A stretch of DNA of 64,000 bases, taken from positions 1,240,001 to 1,304,000 of the forward strand of contig NC_085068.1 of the NCBI RefSeq assembly GCF_963662255.1, read 5' to 3'. Shown here in pieces: positions 47,701-59,700 of the stretch. A model generated the notes under the pieces. That model saw only the letters and a program-made list of their open reading frames with translations. It did no database searches and was not told where the DNA came from. A program made the translations under genes and the position numbers. The DNA is from Cinclus cinclus (Eukaryota; Chordata; Aves; Passeriformes; Cinclidae). The number at the start of each line of letters is the position of its first letter. The stretch's first letter is position 1.

Positions 47701-50700
47701 AGAGTCTCAGCCATCCCCCAGCTCCTCCTTCCCATCCAGAATGAGCACAGAGACTATCTAGATGCTTTCACTGATCAGTTTTGGGGTGTTTTTGTTGGAA
47801 ATTTTAATTTTTAAGTGTCAACCAAATGCAAATTGATAAAGGAAAATGACCCAAAGCATTTCCAAAAGTAACTCTCAGCTTTATAAATCCTTGTGCTCAT
47901 CCCTCCCAGCTCTTTACAACAAACAGTATTATAAGGGCACCAAAACTGCAAGGTCCAAGGAAAGGATAAGTGTGTTTTGTTGATGGGCATGTGGATGGTT
48001 AAGGGAATGACTTCTGAATGGGAGGAAAATTTAGGAAAATCCTCTAAGATCACCAAGTCCAACCATTCCTCCAGCACTGCCAAGTCCTCCCACTAACTAT
48101 GTCCCCAAGTGCCACATTGACACATTGGTTGCAAAATTAAGAATTCTAAACAGCAATGGACAGGTCAAGAGGAACAAGAAGAGCCACTTCAGTGCGAGCT
48201 TCTTTGAGTTAGGACATTGGAGACAAATATTTTTCCCTCCTGACACTTCTGATTTTTGCTCTTCCTCACTTGTCAGTTTGAGCAAAGTTCTTGTTCAGTT
48301 TTATCCAGTTGGGATAGAAGGTAAAATGATACCAAAACAGAAGACAAATTCCTACCATATAAGGAGTATTTGCCCATGTTTGCTCAAAATTCTTGATAAG
48401 AAAAGCTACTCTGCTTCAAATTAACCAAGAGGGCTTTGGGGAGAAAGGGGCAGCTCCAGGGAGAGTCTTTGCTGACAACAGACCCCAAGTGATACCCAGA
48501 CCATCCTCCTGTGCTGCCTTCACCTGCCAAGGAGAGCAGAAAGGCTGGAAGAGCTGGGGGTGTTCACCTGGAGAAGAGAAGGCTCCAGGAAGACCTCAGA
48601 GCCCCTTCCAGTGCCTCAAGGGGCTCCAGGAGAGCTGGAGAGGGACTTGGGACAAGGGCCTTGAGGGACAGGACACGGAACGGCTTCCCACTGCCAGAGG
48701 GCAGGGTCAGATGGGATACTGGGAGGAAATCCTTCCCTATGGAGGTGGGGAGACCCTGGCACAAGGTGCCCAGAGCAGCTGTGGCTGCCTCACTCCTGGA
48801 AGTGTCCAAGGCCAGGCTGGACAGTTTGCTCTGAGCAACCTGGGCTAAAGGAAGGTGCCCCTGGCCATGGCAGGTGGTGACACTGGATGGGCTTTAAGGT
48901 CCCTTCCCATTCAAACATGTCTTGAATTCTCTGACAGCAGACATGGGGGATGAGCTTCTAATAAAAACAACATAAAAATTGTTCATTAAAATAGAAGGAC
49001 TACCAAGAGTTCAATAAAATAACAAAGAATAGAACCAGATCTGAGAGGGCACAAGTCATGCACCCGTAGTCCACAAGAATGTCTTGATTAGTTTGAGCTG
49101 AGTTAATTAACCATACTTAAGTGTCCATTGTTCAACGTGTAAAAAGGATCTACTGATAAGGCAGAGGTTCTGCCGGGAAGAGGAGTCTTCTTCATTCCAA
49201 CAACCACCGGAGAGCAAAGTACGACCCCTATCAACAGGCAGTGCCAGCGCAGACACGATTGCAAAAGGGACACGTATACCAGAAACAAGGGGTATAAACC
49301 CCAAAGGACAGAGAGAGGAAAGTGCGCGCCGTTGGTGGAGTGCTAACTCCCGGCCGCCCAGCGCTGCTTTTGCTTGTTACCGCTTGCTTAATAAATTCCA
49401 CTTGTTGATGTTCAATTGGCTCTGAGTCAGTGTGTGTGACAAACACTTATAACAAATTGGTGCCGTGACTCGGATAAGGGCAACCCGGTGGGAGACCTCC
49501 ACCAGGGAGGCGCCCCGCTTTTAGCGGCCTTGGTGCTGCGCCCACCCTCCTGGACCCTTACCGACAAACCCTAAATTGGTAACAAGCAAAGGAAAACCGG
49601 TAACCCCATAATCTTTGTGCACGAAGCCCCGGGCGAAGACGCAGGAAGCGTAAGTATATGTGTGAATCCGTTCAGTTGGGGTTGGGTATCCCAGGACACA
49701 GCAAATGAGACGCCCGGTGTGGGTGAAGCAAGTGCAGACCTCTGAGTAGTGTGGTTCCCAAATCCCGGGAGGAACTGGGCCACAAAAAGAGGGAAACGTG
49801 TGTGTGAGTGTTTGTTGGTGTTCTGGAAGATGGGACAGGGGAAAAGCAAGCCCTCTGATCCCATGGGTAAGGGGACCCCAGTAAAGCTCCCCCAGATACC
49901 CCCTGACAGTCCGTTAGGGATGATGATGATTAAATATTGGAATGATTAGCCTTCTAGGAAAGGGAAGGATAAGGTCAAAATGATACATTATTGTATGGAG
50001 GTGTGGGGAGGGAAACAGATCCGTGGAGATAATCTGTTTTGGCCAGTATTCAGAAGTTCCGAAGACTGGATTTGCCAGGCATTAAATATTTTTGTAAACT
50101 CTAAAGAACCTTTTTGCCTGGAAGAAAGTGAATATGCTGCCCTTTGGATAGTGGGAGAAACTAGGACTAGATTGTTTGCCCTAAACACCTGGGGAGGGAA
50201 AAAGAAATCTAAATGATCCGAGGAGGTCCCGACTGCTCCCCCCCCCCCCCTACATATCTCCTCCTCTCCCAGTTCCCCCACCTCCCCAGGCACAAGTCCT
50301 AGAGTCAGATCATGAAGAAGAATCCGGGGAACAAGAATTGGGGAACCACGAGTTAAGATCCGAAGATAACCGAAGGATCACTCGCAGCCAGTCTAGGAGG
50401 GATAGAGAAGGTCCAACCCTGTATCCATTAAGAGAAGTGGGCCTGGGGATGATCCCTAATCCAAATGCTGGACAACAGGGGCAGCCTGCCCAAATACCGG
50501 GCATAGGCTATGTAGAAGTGCCCCTTAATTCTGGAGATGTTAGAGAATTCAAGAAGGAGATGGGACATTTGCTAGAAGATCCCCTTGGGGTGGCGGAAAG
50601 GGTTGATCAATTTTTGGGTCCCAATATATATACGTGGGATGAAATGCAGTCTATCATAGGAATTTTGTTCTCTTCTGAGGAAAGGAGAATGATCAGAACA

Positions 50701-53700
50701 GCGGGAATGAGGGTGTGGGACAGGGACCACCAGGCAGGTCCCCAAGATGATGTGAAGTGGCCATTGCAACGCCCTAATTGGGATAAGCAAAATCCACAGC
50801 ACCGAGCCCATATGGCAGACTTAAGAACTATCCTAATCCAAGGAATCCGGGAATCTGTCCCTCGGGGACAAAGTGTAAATAAAGCCTTCTGTGAAAGCCA
50901 AAAGAAAGATGAGGACCCTACTGAATGGATAGAGAGGCTCCGAAGGTCATTTCAACTATATTCCGGGGTGAACCCTGATACTCCAGAAGGTCAAGTGTTA
51001 TTAAAAACTCGATTTGTAGCAAAATCTTGGCCTGACATCAGGAAAAAGTTAGAGAAAATTGAAGATTGGCATGATCGTAGTTTAGATGAATTGTTGCGGG
51101 AAGCGCAGAAGGTGTATGTCCGGAGGGAGGAAGAAGGACACAGGAAGCAGGCTAAAGTAATGATGGCAGTAGTACGTGAGGGGCAACGAGTAACAACTAG
51201 TCGATTCTCCTCGAAGGCGGGCCCTCCTAGAACCAGAAATGTGCCTAGAGAAAAGGAGGGTACCCAGGAGACTTGCTATTATTGTGGAAAGAGGGGGCAT
51301 TTTCGGAGAGATTGTCGGAAAAGGATTGCAGATGAGAAAGAATTTAAGGAAGATTAGGGGGGTCAGGGGCTCTATTTGCTGGGGACCCGAGAAAGATCAG
51401 AGCCCCTGGTAAAGCTGAAAGTAGGTCCCCAGCAACAGGAAATAGAGTTTTTAATTGACACTGGAGCAGAAAGGTCCACAGTACAAAGCCTCCCTTTAGG
51501 ATGTAAAATATCAAAAGAAAGAATCCAAGTTGTGGGAGCGAAGGGAGAACCTTTTAGTGTACCTGTAATTAAAGATGTAGCTTTTGAAAACAGCTCAAAA
51601 TTGGGTTTAGGAACCCTCCTGTTGGTACCTGAAGCTGATTACAATCTTTTAAGAAGAGATCTTATGGTAGAACTAGGAATTGAAATTAGTATAGAAAATA
51701 AACAATTAACAGTAAAATTATGTCCATTGCGAGTAGAGGATGAACAGGAAATAAACCCAAAAGTTTGGTATACCCCCAACACTGTGGGTCGATTGGAGAT
51801 AGAACCGTTTGAAGTGACATTGAAAGACCCTGACATTCCAGTAAAGATTAAGCAATATCCAATTTCAGATGAAAGGAAAATGGGGATAAAACCCGAAGTT
51901 GAAAGACTTCTAAAACAAGGATTGTTGCAACCCTGCATGTCCCCTTTTAATACACCCATTCTCCCTGTTAAGAAGCCTGATGGGAAATACCGGTTAGTAC
52001 ATGATTTACGGGAAATTAATAAAAGAACCGTGGAACTGATTTCCCGTAGTAGCAAACCCTTACACCCTGTTGAGCCAATTAGGACCTGATAATCAATGGT
52101 ATAGTGTAATAGATTTAAAAGATGCTTTTTGGGCCTGCCCCTTGAAAGAGAATTGTAGGGATTATTTTGCATTTGAGTGGGAAGACCCAGATACTCATAG
52201 AAAACAGCAGCTTCGCTGGACGGTTCTTCCTCAAGGATTTACTGAGTCCCCCAATTTGTTCGGCCAAGCACTTGAACAATTACTAAGTGATTATAAGTTA
52301 GGAGAAGGGGCCGTGTTGATTCAATATGCGGATGACTTGTTGATTGCTGGCAAGGAGGAATGGGTGGTAAGGCAAGAGAGCATAAAGCTGTTGAACTTCC
52401 TTAGTTTAAAAGGACTGAAGGTATCAAAATCTAAACTCCAATTTGTAGAAGAAGTAAAATACCTGGGATACAGGCTGAAGCAAGGAATGAAAAAGATAGA
52501 TCTGGATAGGATAAAAGGGATCTTATCTATGCCAAGGCCACAAACAAAACGAGAGGTGAGGCAATTACTGGGATTATTTGGATATTGTAGACAATGGATT
52601 GAGGGGTTTAGTGGGAAAGTAAAATTTTTATATGAAAAATTAACCAAGACTGGTTTACTTAAGTGGAATCAGTTAGATGAAGACAAATTACAAATTCTCA
52701 AGACAGAGTTGGTAAATGCACCTGTATTAAGCCTCCCAGATTTAAAAAGGCCTTTTTATCTCTTTGTAAACACAACGGAAGGAACAGCATATGGGGTGTT
52801 AGCCCAGGATTGGGCTGGTAGTAAAAAGCCTGTGGCCTACCTATCTAAATTACTAGATCCGGTATCAAGGGGTTGGCCAACATGTTTGCAGTCGATAGTG
52901 GCTGCTGCTCTGTTAGTAGAAGAAGCTGTAAAAATCACTTTCGGGGGAGAGTTGCATGTTTTGTCTCCTCACAACATAAGGGGGGTCCTCCAACAGAAAG
53001 CAGACAAATGGATAACTGATGCTCGGCTTTTAAAATATGAAGGGATCCTTATATCTTCTCCTAAATTGAGCTTAGAGACAACCTCTCTCCAAAATCCCGC
53101 CCAATTTTTATATGGGGAACCGAGTGAAAACTTAAAGCATGATTGTTTAAGGGTAATAGAAGAACAAACAAAAATCAGACCAGACCTAGAAGAGGAAGAA
53201 TTAGAATATGGGGAAAAACTGTTTGTGGATGGGTCTTCCCGAGTAGTTGAAGGAAGGAGAAAATCTGGTTATGCAGTAATTAATGGAAAGACCCTAGAGG
53301 TGAGAGAATCAGGACCACTAAATTCTGTGTGGTCAGCGCAGGCTTGTGAATTGTATGCTGTATGGCAAGCACTGAAATTATTGAGAGGAAAAGCAGGAAC
53401 AATCTTTACAGACTCAAAATATGCTTATGGGGTGGTGCATACCTTTGGAAAAATTTGGGAAGAGAGAGGTTTAATTAATTCCCAGGGAAAAGGATTAATT
53501 CATGAAGATTTAGTAAGGAAGGTTTTACAGGCTCTAAGGTGGCCCACTGAAATAGCTGTGGTCCATGTAAAAGGGCACCAGACTGGAGTAAACAATCGAG
53601 TGAGGGGAAATAACCTAGCAGATCACGAAGCAAAGGCCGCAGCCCTCAGGGTATTAAAAGAAAAGGCTGCAGGAGTTAAGAGAAATTGCTCCTTTTGTGA

Positions 53701-56700
53701 AAAAGATTTAAACAAATTACCTCGTATGCTTTGCTGGGAAGATTCCAAAATAGATAAGATAGAATGTGTCTGTTTGAACCCCACTAAGATGCATTGTTAT
53801 TATCACGGGCCAATTCAAATACTCACATTCACTGAGAGAGAACAACAGAAATTGAATGAAATGGGGGTAGTGAAGAAAGGAAAATAAACGAGAATTGCCA
53901 GACGGTCGCGAAGTTCTTCCAAAACCGGTAGCCCGAAGAATTTTGGAAGCCATCCACTCCAAAACTCACTGGGGTACACAAGCCTTGATAGATCAATTTG
54001 CTATTAAATATGTCTGTATTGGGATGCATAACTTAGCCAAACAGGTCACACAACGATGTTTAACCTGTCAAAAGGTGAATAAGAAGCATTGGTGACAACG
54101 GGAAGCTGGGGGAAGGGATTTAGCCTACAGACCTTTTTCACACATTCAAATTGACTTTACTGATTTGCCTAAGGTAGGGAGATACAAACATTTGTTAGTG
54201 ATAATTGACCATTTAACCCATTTTGTAGAAGCTTTTCCTACCTCTAGAGCAACTACACAAGCAGTGGTGAAAATTTTGCTAGAAGATATCATCCCTCGAT
54301 ATGGGTTAATAGAGGTGATAGATTCAGACAGGGGGGCACATTTTACATCTAAAATCGCTAAAGAAATTGTTTCAACCCTGGGGACAAAATGGAAGTATCA
54401 CACTCCTTGGCACCCACAGAGTTCAGGGAAAGTAGAAAGAATAAATGGAGAAATAAAGAAACAACTAACCAAGCTGATGTATGAAACACAATTACCTTAG
54501 GTAAAATGTTTACCTTTAGCTTTGCTAAATATACGCACTCAACCCCGGACTGATGTAGGGATTTCCCCCTTTGAAATGCTTTACGGAATGCCGTATAATA
54601 TGGATGCCCCAGCGGATCATCCCGAGATAAGTAATCAACAAATTAATCATTACATAATACAGCTGACACAAGCTCGTGATAAACTCAGAAAAGCTGGATT
54701 ATTGGTACAAAGACCTCCTCTTGACTTAGCGATTCACAATATAAAAGTGGGTGATAAGGTTTTGGTTAAAACATGGAAAGAAAATACGTTAACTCCAACT
54801 TGGGAAGGTCCCTATGTTGTGTTACTCACTACAGAAACTGCCATCAGAACCGCGGAAAAAGGCTGGACTCGTGCAAGCAGGATAAAAAGACCTATACACC
54901 CCTCCTCCGAGGAACCCTGGAAAGTAACCAGCGCTCCAGGAGATCTTAGAGTCACCCTAAAACGGACTTAAATGAACACTGTGAAGGTAGTTCGGGTACA
55001 ATGAGACAGCGAAATTAAGTGTAACTACTTGATAACTGGATATTTCAAGATATATTGCTCGAACAAGGATTGTGGTTGTGATCCATTTGTATGTTTTGTT
55101 TGTAAAATTTGCCAAGAACGGTGGTGGGTCCATTGTTAGAGAGGAAGTCCACCTAGCAGTGTTTGTAAGAATTGCTATCAACTAGAACGGGAGCTTACTA
55201 AAAGGATTTTACATGAAGGGGAAGGGTATTCACAAGGGGGGGCAAGGTCAGAAAATTATTGCTTCCATCCTAATGAACCAGTTCCTTTCATAGCTAAAAT
55301 CATTAAGGGAAATTGTAGAAAAGCTGTACCTGGGGTCTGGTGTTCTTCACCGCAAGTGAAGGATAAGAAGTGGGAATCTTATAAAAAGAGGCAACAAAAA
55401 ACGACATGGCCCTCCTGAAGAATATCCTTGCTGCCGAGAAGATGGTTCCCCTCGCGGCTCGAAGCAACCGAGTCGGCGAGCGAGGCAGAGGGATAAGAAA
55501 AGGTGGAGGAGAGAACCCACAGACTGGAACAATTCAGAAATGTTCCGAGAACTGCCTCAAGGATTTTAAATCCCAGAAATCACTCATAGACCCAGAGGGG
55601 GGGTGCAAAAAATAAAAATTTCACATTAAGACACAAAGGAATTGAAAATAAAAATCCACCAGGACCACACCCTTCTTGGCAGGTTATGGGAATTTTAGCT
55701 GTAATATATATACAAATCAGCCAAGTAGATGCTTATGCGAACAAGCATCAACCTTTCAAATGGTCTTTGATACAAATAGAAGACTCGATAGTTATAAACT
55801 CAACGATTACGACTGCAGCCCCAAGCTTCCAAACACATTTGAGCTCAATTATTCGAGCAGGGACTGATAACACATACAAAAGACAAGTACAATCTAAGGC
55901 CTTTTATATGTGCCCAAGCTCAAATCCAGGATGGGGTTATTGCAATTGGCCTGGACATTACTATTGTGCATATTGGGGATGTGAAACTATTGCCTCTGAT
56001 TGGGAACCGGGGGCAGGCCAAGACAGATACCTTAGAGTCGGGTGGGGACCGCCTGGATGTCAAATACCCAAACATGGATATGATGACACAGTGCAAGGGG
56101 AAAATCGAAATACCTGTTGGATGATTTACCTTAACATAACCAATCCACAGGATCCAGGGTGGAATATTGGGAAAATCTGGTGAATTCGGTTTTGGGAACC
56201 TGGCACAGACCGAGGAGGATTAATACTAATAAAGAAAGAAATAGTCCCAAAAGACCTAGTGGGTGTCGGTCCTAACCCAGTGGTAAAAGAGTCCCCAAAA
56301 TTATATACCATCCAGAGGAATATGTATATCAAGCCCAAAATACCCCAGAACATCATTTACAAAAAAGAGAACCCTTTACAGCCCTTACTGTGGCCACACT
56401 TATGTTGGTGGGCACTGCGGGAGCTGGTACAGGAATAGCTTCCCTAGTGAGACAAACAACAGAGTTTAATACATTAAGGATAGCAGTAGATGAAGATTTA
56501 GCTAGAATAGAAGAATCAATCACAGCCTTAGAAAAATCTGTTCAATCTTTATCTGAGGTAGTATTACAAAACCGAAGGGGGCTAGATCTAATAATCTTCC
56601 TTCAGCAAGGAGGATTGTGCGCGGCACTTAAAGAAGAATGTTGCATTTATGCAGATCATACCGGGCTTGTTAGAGATACAATGGCTAAATTGAGAGAAAG

Positions 56701-59700
56701 GCTAGAGCAAAGAAAGCGAGAAAGAGAAGCTCAACAGTCCTGGTATGACACTTGGTTCAACAGTTCTTCCTGGCTTACTACTCTGCTATCTACAATTGCA
56801 GGTCCTTTGTTATTTCTGGTGTTCGGATTAACTTTCGGACCCTGCATCTTTAATAAGGTCATAGAAATTGTAAAAGGGCGATTAGAAGCTGCTCACCTGA
56901 TGTTAATTAAAGCTAAATACGAGTACATCTTAAATGATGAGGAGGTGGAAAAAGAGCTTGCATTGAGCTATCAGGAATTAAAAAGATTTAATGAACAAAA
57001 TATGAAAGAAGAAAAGGAGGGATTGTAATAAAAACAACATAAAAATTGTTCATTAAAATAGAAGGACTACCAAGAGTTCAATAAAATAACAAAGAATAGA
57101 ACCAGATCTGAGAGGGCACAAGTCATGCACCCGTAGTCCACAAGAATGTCTTGATTAGTTTGAGCTGAGTTAATTAACCATACTTAAGTATCCATTGTTC
57201 AACGTGTAAAAAGGATCTACTGATAAGGCAGAGGTTCTGCCGGGAAGAGGAGTCTTCTTCATTCCAACGACCACCGGAGAGCAAAGTACGACCCCTATCA
57301 ACAGGCAGTGCCAGCGCAGACACGATTGCAAAAGGGACACGTATAGCAGAAACAAGGGGTATAAACCCCAAAGGACAGAGAGAGGAAAGTGCGCGCAGTT
57401 GGTGGAGCGCTAACTCCCGGCCGCCCAGCGCTGCTTTTGCTTGTTACCGCTTGCTTAATAAATTCCACTGCTTGATGTACAATTGGCTCTGAGTCAGTGT
57501 GTGTGACAAACACTTATAACAAGCTCACTATATTCAGGGCTAGTGGATTTAGCGCTGAAAGTCTGAACATTGGACAGGAAAGTGCACACCACAGCCAAAT
57601 CCAAGAGCAGGCCTAGGCAGGTTTTTGGTCATTACCTGACATAGAGATCCTTCTGGTTCAGGAGTCGGACACCTTCCTCATACAGAGCTTTGTTCTCCTC
57701 CTTCAGCAGCGCCAGCTGCTCTGAGAGCTTCTGGTTCTCCTTCTGGCACTGTACATGCTGGAAAAGGGCTATTTTTAACTTGTGTATGTGTGGCCTCAGC
57801 TGGACGGGCCCCGCTGCCTCCCATCTGCCTGGTTTCCAAAGCTTCTCTCTCATCAATCCCAGCGGTTTCCAGTACAGCCAATAGCCAACCAGCCAGCCCC
57901 CCAGACCACTCCCTCCTCCCCCCAACAAGCAATGGGATTTTGTTGCAGAGAGAGGCAGTGAACCCTCCCAGACTGCCAAAATTTCCAAACAAAAATTCCA
58001 AGCTCTGCAAGATAAAGGGAAGGAAGAAATAACCAAGCCTTCCTGGGCCCTGCATCCCACTGTTGTTTGTTTTTCCTCTCCTCTTTGCCTGTGGAATTTT
58101 TTCCCATTGACATGCTAAGAAGCACTGATGGCTAGGTCCTTGAGATGGGGGAGGGAAGGAGGAACCTCCCTGTTTTTTTGGGAATTTTCTCCCAGAGGGG
58201 GTGGGGGGAACACTTCGAGATTAGAAGCAGGTGGGGGGGGCGGGGGGGCAGTTGCTGTGGCTTACTCGCTTTTGGCTCTTGGAGGAGGAAGGCCGCTTTC
58301 CCCTGGCCATCCCAACGCCGGGACCTGCCTCTTCTGCTGTTGGACCTCGCACCCCTGCCCTGCTAGGACGCCCTGTCGCTTCAGTTTGCTGTTTCCAAGA
58401 ATCCTGTTAGAGCACCAGGACCGACAGTGCCCCAAGGGTTCATGAGCAGAGTCTCTCCTCCACCCTTCCCATCTGGGACACGGCTGCCATCACCCCCAGT
58501 GCCCCTGCAGCTGCACAGGGATGGTCGCACCTGTCCTGCCCACTGGGAACCTGCCAGAGCTCATGGCCAGCTGGGACGGGAACTACACCAAAGGGGAAAG
58601 TGCCCCTATTCAAGAGAACTGTTACTGGCTTCCTGTTCTGTTTGTTGTTAATTCCATAGTTGTTGTTGTTCTGTTTGCCTTGTTATATATACTAGTAAAG
58701 AACTGTTATTCCTATCCCCATATCTTTGCCTGAGAGTCCCTTAATTTCAAAATTATACTAACTCAGAGGGAGAGAATTTACTTTTTCCATTCCAAGGGAA
58801 GGCCCTGCTTTCCTCAGCAGACACCTGTCTTTCAAATCGGGACACCCAGAAAACCAGCTGGCAATGGGAGACTGCTTTTCCTCCAGCTCTTGTTGAAATC
58901 AGTGAGAACTGCAAGAACTCAGCCTCTAATTAGATGTTCACAATTTCAGAAGCTCCCAGGAGCAGATTCCAGCTCATGATGTGTGATGAGGAACCCCCTC
59001 ACTGTCACTCACCTCACCAGCATCCAGCTTCTTCTCATCCTCCAGGACGTGCAGGGTCTTGGCCTGGAGCTCCACATGCATCTTGGCCAGTGATGCCTCT
59101 GTCTCCTGGGAATGCCAGAGCTGCTGCTGCAGCTCCTCCACCTGCTGTTCCAGGAGCCTCCTGGAAACACAATAGGGTAACAGTGAGAGCTGGAGGGGGA
59201 ATGTATCACCTGTCCCCAAGACGTCTGTCTGTCTGTCATCCAAAACACCCCATTCTCCTCTTGCCCTGACTGGCATGGAGGGGACAAAGGAATCAGCACA
59301 TACCAGTTGTCCCCATGTCCCAGTGACACAGAAAGGGGGGATGATATACTGGGATCATTCCCAGCTGCACGGGGAAGGGGCCTGCTGGCATCACTGCACT
59401 GACAGGAGAGGCCACAGCCCTCCCAAGGCAGATGAAGCCTTCAAAAATCTTTTAAATCTCAGGAAGAGGGAATCTCTGGAGAACTCCAGGGATAAGGTAA
59501 GTCCAAAGGGAAGACGGAAGGTCAAAACAGTGGTTGGGTTCTCCCTGAACCCTCCAAGGGCAGCCAGGAGGACTGGCACAGCCCCTGCACAGCACAGAGA
59601 CCTTTTTAGCTGCTCCTCATGAAGTTCCTGTTGCACTCGAGCTTCATTTTCCCGAGCTTCCTTCAGCTCCTCCTCCAGAAGCTTCTTATCAGAAACATGG

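Follow-up and report, generated by a model that had tools for sequence, protein, structure and literature searches.

The window analysed here, a stretch of 64,000 nucleotides of the Cinclus cinclus genome, contains a class I, gammaretrovirus-like endogenous retrovirus (ERV) with a cysteine-rich frame between its pol and env genes. This frame, which starts right after the pol stop codon, is called ORFx below; it is broken in the window copy and is the remnant of a real gene. We consider it somewhat probable that ORFx is a conserved accessory gene of an avian gammaretrovirus-like ERV group, located between pol and env and overlapping the env start, with a zinc-binding and dispensable product past which ribosomes reach Env by leaky scanning. 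A first-pass annotation of this DNA had proposed an undescribed accessory gene at this place. In support of this, open homologs were found in other lineages of the same genome, and the ratio of non-synonymous to synonymous substitution rates (dN/dS) between lineages is well below 1.

ORFx homologs in other lineages

All genome searches were made in a 1.17-Gb assembly, in which the window sits on contig C26. A tblastn search with an open copy of ORFx yielded 143 matches, and 150 of 229 candidates were scored. Among those scored, a sister group of the window family occupies 9 places with 88-90% identity over the whole query, 1 of the 9 being stop-free, and separate lineages at 46-51% identity show no stop in 15 of 19 matched stretches. 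The second lineage is 43% identical. The sister-group copy L141 has 211 open ORFx codons, 13 of which the window family lacks; its Cys-rich and Arg-rich parts form one continuous frame, as had been supposed for the window's family.

A second search with a lineage-2 protein as query yielded 162 matches, and the best 150 of 311 candidates were scored. Among the matches listed, lineage 2 is found at 13 places with 97-100% identity, 10 of them stop-free over all 216 codons; five of these places cluster in a 2.5-Mb part of C6 and could be duplicates. The same matches include lineage 2b (5 places at 68-71%, with one or two stops each) and lineage 3 (many partial rows and 3 that span positions 1-213, each of them broken). 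Lineage 4, a distant one (27-31% identity, E 2e-9 to 1e-5), carries one TAG per listed row in the ORFx frame, for example in L151 (C275:223000-223900), possibly a second inherited loss or a read-through codon. Six stretches of lineages 3 and 4 were read. Within ORFx, the lineage-3 copies L150, L152, L153 and L154 have an A run of variable length, from which L149 is free.

Among 221 proteins retrieved from the databases, a predicted protein of Apus apus comprises 27 residues of a block conserved in ORFx (the CRK/C-x2-P block described below) followed by the Env leader (E 2.2e-6; hhalign E 1.4e-6). It looks like a mix of pol, ORFx and env exons.

Selection between lineages

Between L132 (lineage 2) and L130 (lineage 2b), compared over 181 codons at 70% residue identity, dS was 1.33 and dN 0.18, giving a dN/dS of 0.14 with a bootstrap upper bound of 0.23. 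The adjoining pol of the same two copies yielded 0.08 (67% identity, dS 2.9). The other pairs gave 0.12 (L132-L131), 0.23 (both L129-L132 and L129-L130), 0.31 (L141-L132, upper bound 0.51), 0.21 (L141-L145, upper bound 0.63), 0.36 (L141-L031, upper bound 1.09) and 0.30 on 9 changes (L132-L139). An open frame outside gag, pol and env is thus under purifying selection between lineages 2 and 2b.

As a frame control, the 594 gap-free bases aligned between L132 and L130 (74% identity) were read in all frames. The real frame has 0 stops in the 198 codons of either copy, and the other five frames contain 6-18 stops with dN/dS values of 0.31-1.71. In 4000 first-order Markov shuffles of the open copy L031, a frame of at least 148 codons arose in 0.45% and that one frame was stop-free in 0.025%; the ORFx of L031 holds 13 Cys against a shuffle mean of 4.4. 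We give almost no credence to a non-coding stretch or RNA element that is open by chance. A neutral pattern within the window family and an undistinctive codon usage would fit it; against it stand the low dN/dS, the absence of any indel or stop in the alignment of L132 and L130 and the closure of the other five frames, and the Rfam scan of the whole window gave no match. The SPRE RNA element was dropped as a candidate, being placed near the 3' end of ERVs (PMC8579622).

The ORFx protein

In the window copy, the Cys-rich part of ORFx occupies 54972..55418 of the plus strand. Direct reading confirmed that its ATG (54972) abuts the pol stop (TAA, 54969-54971) and that two stops and one shift interrupt it; the stops stand at codon 11 (55002-55004) and codon 56 (55137-55139) and both codons are open in other copies. 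A Cys/His array at 55056..55175 (plus strand), also carried by the relatives, follows the pattern C-x4-C-x-C-x4-C-x2-C-x2-C-x6-HC-x9-C-x2-C. Of 10 copies checked, 9 have it intact, and L137 has one Cys replaced. A second block comes after the array (a Cys, HPNEP, CRK and C-x2-P), then a short basic stretch and PEE-x-PCCREDG, before which some copies end.

The Arg-rich tail lies one frame over in the window (55360..55569, plus strand), where its frame is open over 69 codons with a basic stretch inside, and continues the frame of the Cys-rich part in L141. Its densest 20 residues contain 10 Arg/Lys, fewer than the 12 or so first counted. Outside the window's family the tail is absent, ORFx ending just short of its position in lineages 2, 2b and 3. 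The idea of one gene made of a Cys-rich and an Arg-rich part thus holds for the former, which is conserved, and fails for the latter, which falls outside the conserved gene.

From the Cys/His array we infer that the ORFx protein, of about 200 residues, may bind zinc. The window's broken pieces matched nothing in Pfam and NCBIfam (4 pieces) or the PDB (2 pieces), and scans of IMG/VR with ORFx, the pol end and gag returned no relative. Descent of ORFx from another part of the window was rejected, the best non-self match having an E-value of 0.03.

The only PDB match was the ubiquitin ligase RNF216, at E 0.37 with a single sequence and 0.03 and 0.038 by profile, all weak values. Seven Cys are identically spaced over 35 residues in ORFx and in the RING2 region of RNF216, which would fit a ubiquitin-ligase-like domain of the RBR RING2 type captured from a host. 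We hold this origin to be quite unlikely: no E-value is significant, Pfam assigns no RBR match (its best E-value, in one of 11 members, is 0.06), ORFx has one extra Cys, zinc domains can share spacings by convergence, and both structure models are poor. RNF216 may accordingly serve as a lead, not as a sign of membership. Under the accessory-gene reading, the product would be of the dispensable, host-antagonist type, perhaps engaging the ubiquitin system.

Overlap with env and translation

The Env frame starts within ORFx (55406..55615, plus strand) with a long basic leader; it has two start codons, 55406 and 55442, and other lineages keep the latter. In the window a frame shift follows. Both start codons lie upstream of the classical signal peptide, and the env frame overlaps the Arg-rich stretch in the third frame. 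Since the ORFx tail and the Env leader overlap in different frames, the Arg-rich stretch and the leader are thus two readings of the same DNA. At E-values of 0.01 or less the leader was matched by 13 of the 221 retrieved proteins, all among the 101 Env hits, and the named ones extend from songbirds to Rhea, with Apus, Lonchura, Corvus and Sylvia among them. The query frame, taken from L030, joins the leader via a junction downstream of the conserved Met, so these matches are evidence of the leader, not of its start. The window (55406-55690) and the bird Env proteins P0122, P0123, P0189, P0193 and P0205 share a long, basic Env leader with the motif RSNRV-x-ERGRG, which precedes the hydrophobic signal.

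Counted from the conserved Met through the ORFx stop, L132 and L139 have an overlap of 23 nt and L130 one of 20 nt, and in L141 and L145 it reaches 128 nt. From this Met the Env frame runs 253 codons in L141, and L018, L021, L023, L026 and L027 have Env frames of 227-273 codons that extend as far as the signal peptide. ORFx could in principle be a mere N-terminal extension of Env, as in L003 and L006, duplicates of one insertion in which a 303-codon open frame leads from the later Cys part of ORFx into the Env signal peptide. This fusion frame belongs to a decaying family; the ORFx of lineages 2 and 2b and of L141 carries a start and a stop of its own in a frame other than that of Env, with the overlaps given above, which makes the extension very improbable.

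The start context of ORFx is weak (T or C at -3) and that of the conserved env start strong (A at -3, G at +4). Compared with shuffled synonymous codons, L132 has 1 off-frame AUG between the two starts against 6.8 expected (P 0.001) and L130 has 3 against 8.0. The depletion extends to L134, L139, L130 and L131 (P 0.001-0.014), these five copies with L132 representing only two lineages, and no internal Met occurs in the tested lineage-2 copies (P about 0.04). Six control regions taken from gag, pol and env showed no such depletion (P 0.64-0.98). The shortage of AUG codons between the starts suggests that a single mRNA serves both genes by leaky scanning: ORFx would be translated from the spliced env mRNA, and Env reached by ribosomes passing the weak ORFx start.

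Loss of ORFx in the window family

Close copies were collected with a DNA query, which gave 93 candidates, 40 of which were scored, including the window copy (95-100% identity). The 148-codon frame is open in 10 of the 40. We dropped these ten as support, because 9 of them, with a common 3' flank, are copies of one and the same insertion. This provirus (L028, L031-L035 and L037-L039, on contigs C54, C38 and C240, all small) was multiplied along with its surroundings. A tree of 26 rows, rooted by hand on L031, L033 and L040, with L031 and L033 coming from one insertion, explains the codon-56 stop by a single change, carried by 22 of the 26 rows; the codon-11 state requires three changes.

Silent changes were counted at the shared variable sites of 24 rows. 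The second pol segment (53887-54971) had 25 against 13.6 expected (P 0.0004), and 17 against 8.5 (P 0.0006) without L031 and L040. The stretch after ORFx had 4 against 4.5, the surface (SU) part of Env 11 against 8.9 (P 0.26) and the transmembrane (TM) part 18 against 12.9 (P 0.05).

Several results weigh against a conserved and selected gene. Within the window family ORFx is neutral, with 10 silent changes against 9.0 expected (P 0.41); without L031 and L040 there are 5 against 6.4, no excess. The first pol segment (53400-53887) shows no significant enrichment either (20 against 16.3, P 0.17), and in the second, a stop is created or removed at 6 shared sites (3.2 expected), so that some of these copies did not have an intact pol; spread without ORFx could be explained by help in trans. 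Between lineages, dS is at or near saturation; two of the 11 pairs (L141-L130 and L141-L129) were saturated and gave no value, and the near-identical copies L132 and L133 gave a dN/dS of 0.97 on 5 changes. Neither do the 10 stop-free places out of 13 amount to 10 independent insertions, the lineage-2 copies being nearly identical and their flanks uncompared. The codon usage of ORFx is no closer to that of gag-pol-env than shuffles are (P 0.40). A search of 5.8 billion proteins with the open copy found no relative (2 candidates, none scored) in a collection where bird ERVs are represented, as the 239 matches to the Gag query and 101 to the Env query indicate. The profile search proposed by the first-pass annotation, run with ORFx, open copies and 11 members, matched no Pfam family, and two AlphaFold2 models (mean pLDDT 41 and 39) offered no usable structure. 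Finally, lineage 1 is not depleted in AUG codons (L141 and L145, P 0.24 and 0.28) and has an extra early short AUG frame in fair context as well as the further start at 55406, which complicates scanning.

The neutrality of the close copies arises because the window family inherited a broken ORFx. The selection check suggested at first pass, made on close family copies, did return a neutral result; taken alone, it would have wrongly refuted the gene. In our reading, ORFx would have been lost once and early in the window subfamily, before most sampled insertions, and further insertions followed, with a pol that was selected in this history and was not intact everywhere. The neutrality and the stop common to 22 of 26 rows lead us to regard ORFx as dispensable and not as a regulator of the Tat/Rev type; the data on dispensability are this shared broken state and a silent excess in one of two pol segments, which yet contains shared stops too.

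A Tat/Rev-type regulator, whose Cys part would act on transcription or export and whose basic part would bind viral RNA, is in our view rather unlikely. The Cys-rich and basic composition, which L141 has in one frame, agrees with it and was the sole support for the regulatory role first proposed; a shorter basic stretch ahead of the C-terminus is also kept across lineages. The Arg-rich tail is not kept, being missing from lineages 2, 2b and 3, no family match was obtained, and the ancestor of most sampled window-family insertions already had a broken ORFx. Many insertions after the loss favour an accessory role over that of an essential regulator, and ORFx would not be an essential transactivator or RNA exporter.

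In L119 and L120 (copies L031 and L040), the stretch matching window positions 53400-53887 is 86% identical to the window, against 95-96% around ORFx. L031 and L040 probably represent recombinant subfamilies.

Comparison with known retroviruses

The window provirus shares with murine leukaemia virus (MLV)-type gammaretroviruses and class I ERVs Gag_p30, one CCHC knuckle, MLVIN_C, TLV_coat and a 4-bp target duplication. MLV-type genomes are not known to have a gene between pol and env, and differ in this from the elements with ORFx, which carry an extra gene there. Lentiviruses have their vif/vpr/tat/vpu region between pol and env. ORFx resembles this region in place, in Cys-rich and basic composition and in possible leaky scanning to Env, the way by which Env is reached in vpu/env of human immunodeficiency virus type 1; no sequence relation was found, and the virus hosting ORFx is of class I. 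Betaretroviruses have long Env signal peptides of the Rem/Rec type. The bird Env leader is likewise long and basic, and might have a second role of the Rem/Rec kind; the likeness concerns the leader overlapping ORFx and not ORFx itself.

A review credits viruses with a gamma-type Env with few if any accessory genes (PMC9967133). The orf-x of jaagsiekte sheep retrovirus (JSRV) and Orf-x2 of XtERV-S are described as lying within the integrase part of pol, in a frame different from that of pol (PMC8278194); ORFx, likewise an extra frame toward the 3' part of pol, comes after the pol stop instead and shares sequence with env. Crocodilian ERVs captured KIT-ligand or nectin3 from recognisable host mRNAs (PMC4299795); they share with the ORFx elements an additional gene, which in the latter has no recognised host parent. 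A literature search among open-licence papers recognised no description of such a gene in bird ERVs.

Textbooks use gammaretroviruses as the model of a simple retrovirus; an additional gene maintained by selection between pol and env would imply that complex genomes evolved in this group as well. The basis of this proposal is several lineages of one bird genome and a partial, predicted swift protein. Its fullest form is doubtful: an avian gammaretrovirus group would be complex, its env mRNA yielding, ahead of Env, a zinc-type accessory protein of RBR RING2-like Cys pattern, whose gene one lineage would have dropped on turning to germ-line spread. ORFx marks out a testable protein family, and the window family provides a natural example of insertions continuing after an accessory gene was lost. 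It also calls for caution: where a gene disappeared at the root of an expansion, a study limited to close ERV copies can miss it.

Organisation of the provirus

The provirus is 8.6 kb long (48957..57521, plus strand), with long terminal repeats (LTRs) at 48957-49454 and 57024-57521 and a 4-bp target duplication, AGCT on both sides. All its genes lie on the plus strand. The gag frame (50185..51357) encodes Gag_p30 (5e-28) and one CCHC knuckle. The pol pieces (52040..54971), interrupted by stops and one shift, encode reverse transcriptase, RNase H and an integrase with MLVIN_C (3e-10) and end with the TAA at 54969-54971. The Env signal peptide and SU start (55590..56183) matched TLV_coat at E 0.015, under its cut-off, and the TM part (56276..57028) at 6.5e-76. 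Gag_p30, the MLV-type integrase C-terminus, the gamma-type Env and the target duplication are class I features; a simple genome with nothing between pol and env is not found here, ORFx homologs at this place being under selection. Most of the nearest named relatives of Gag and Env come from birds, in keeping with the avian lineage first proposed. A donor motif is present at 49648, and the acceptor candidates are crude only. The two LTRs of the window provirus differ at 9 of 498 sites; among 20 LTR pairs fetched for the copies, 10 were comparable near full length, with 0-9 differences, and one in part.
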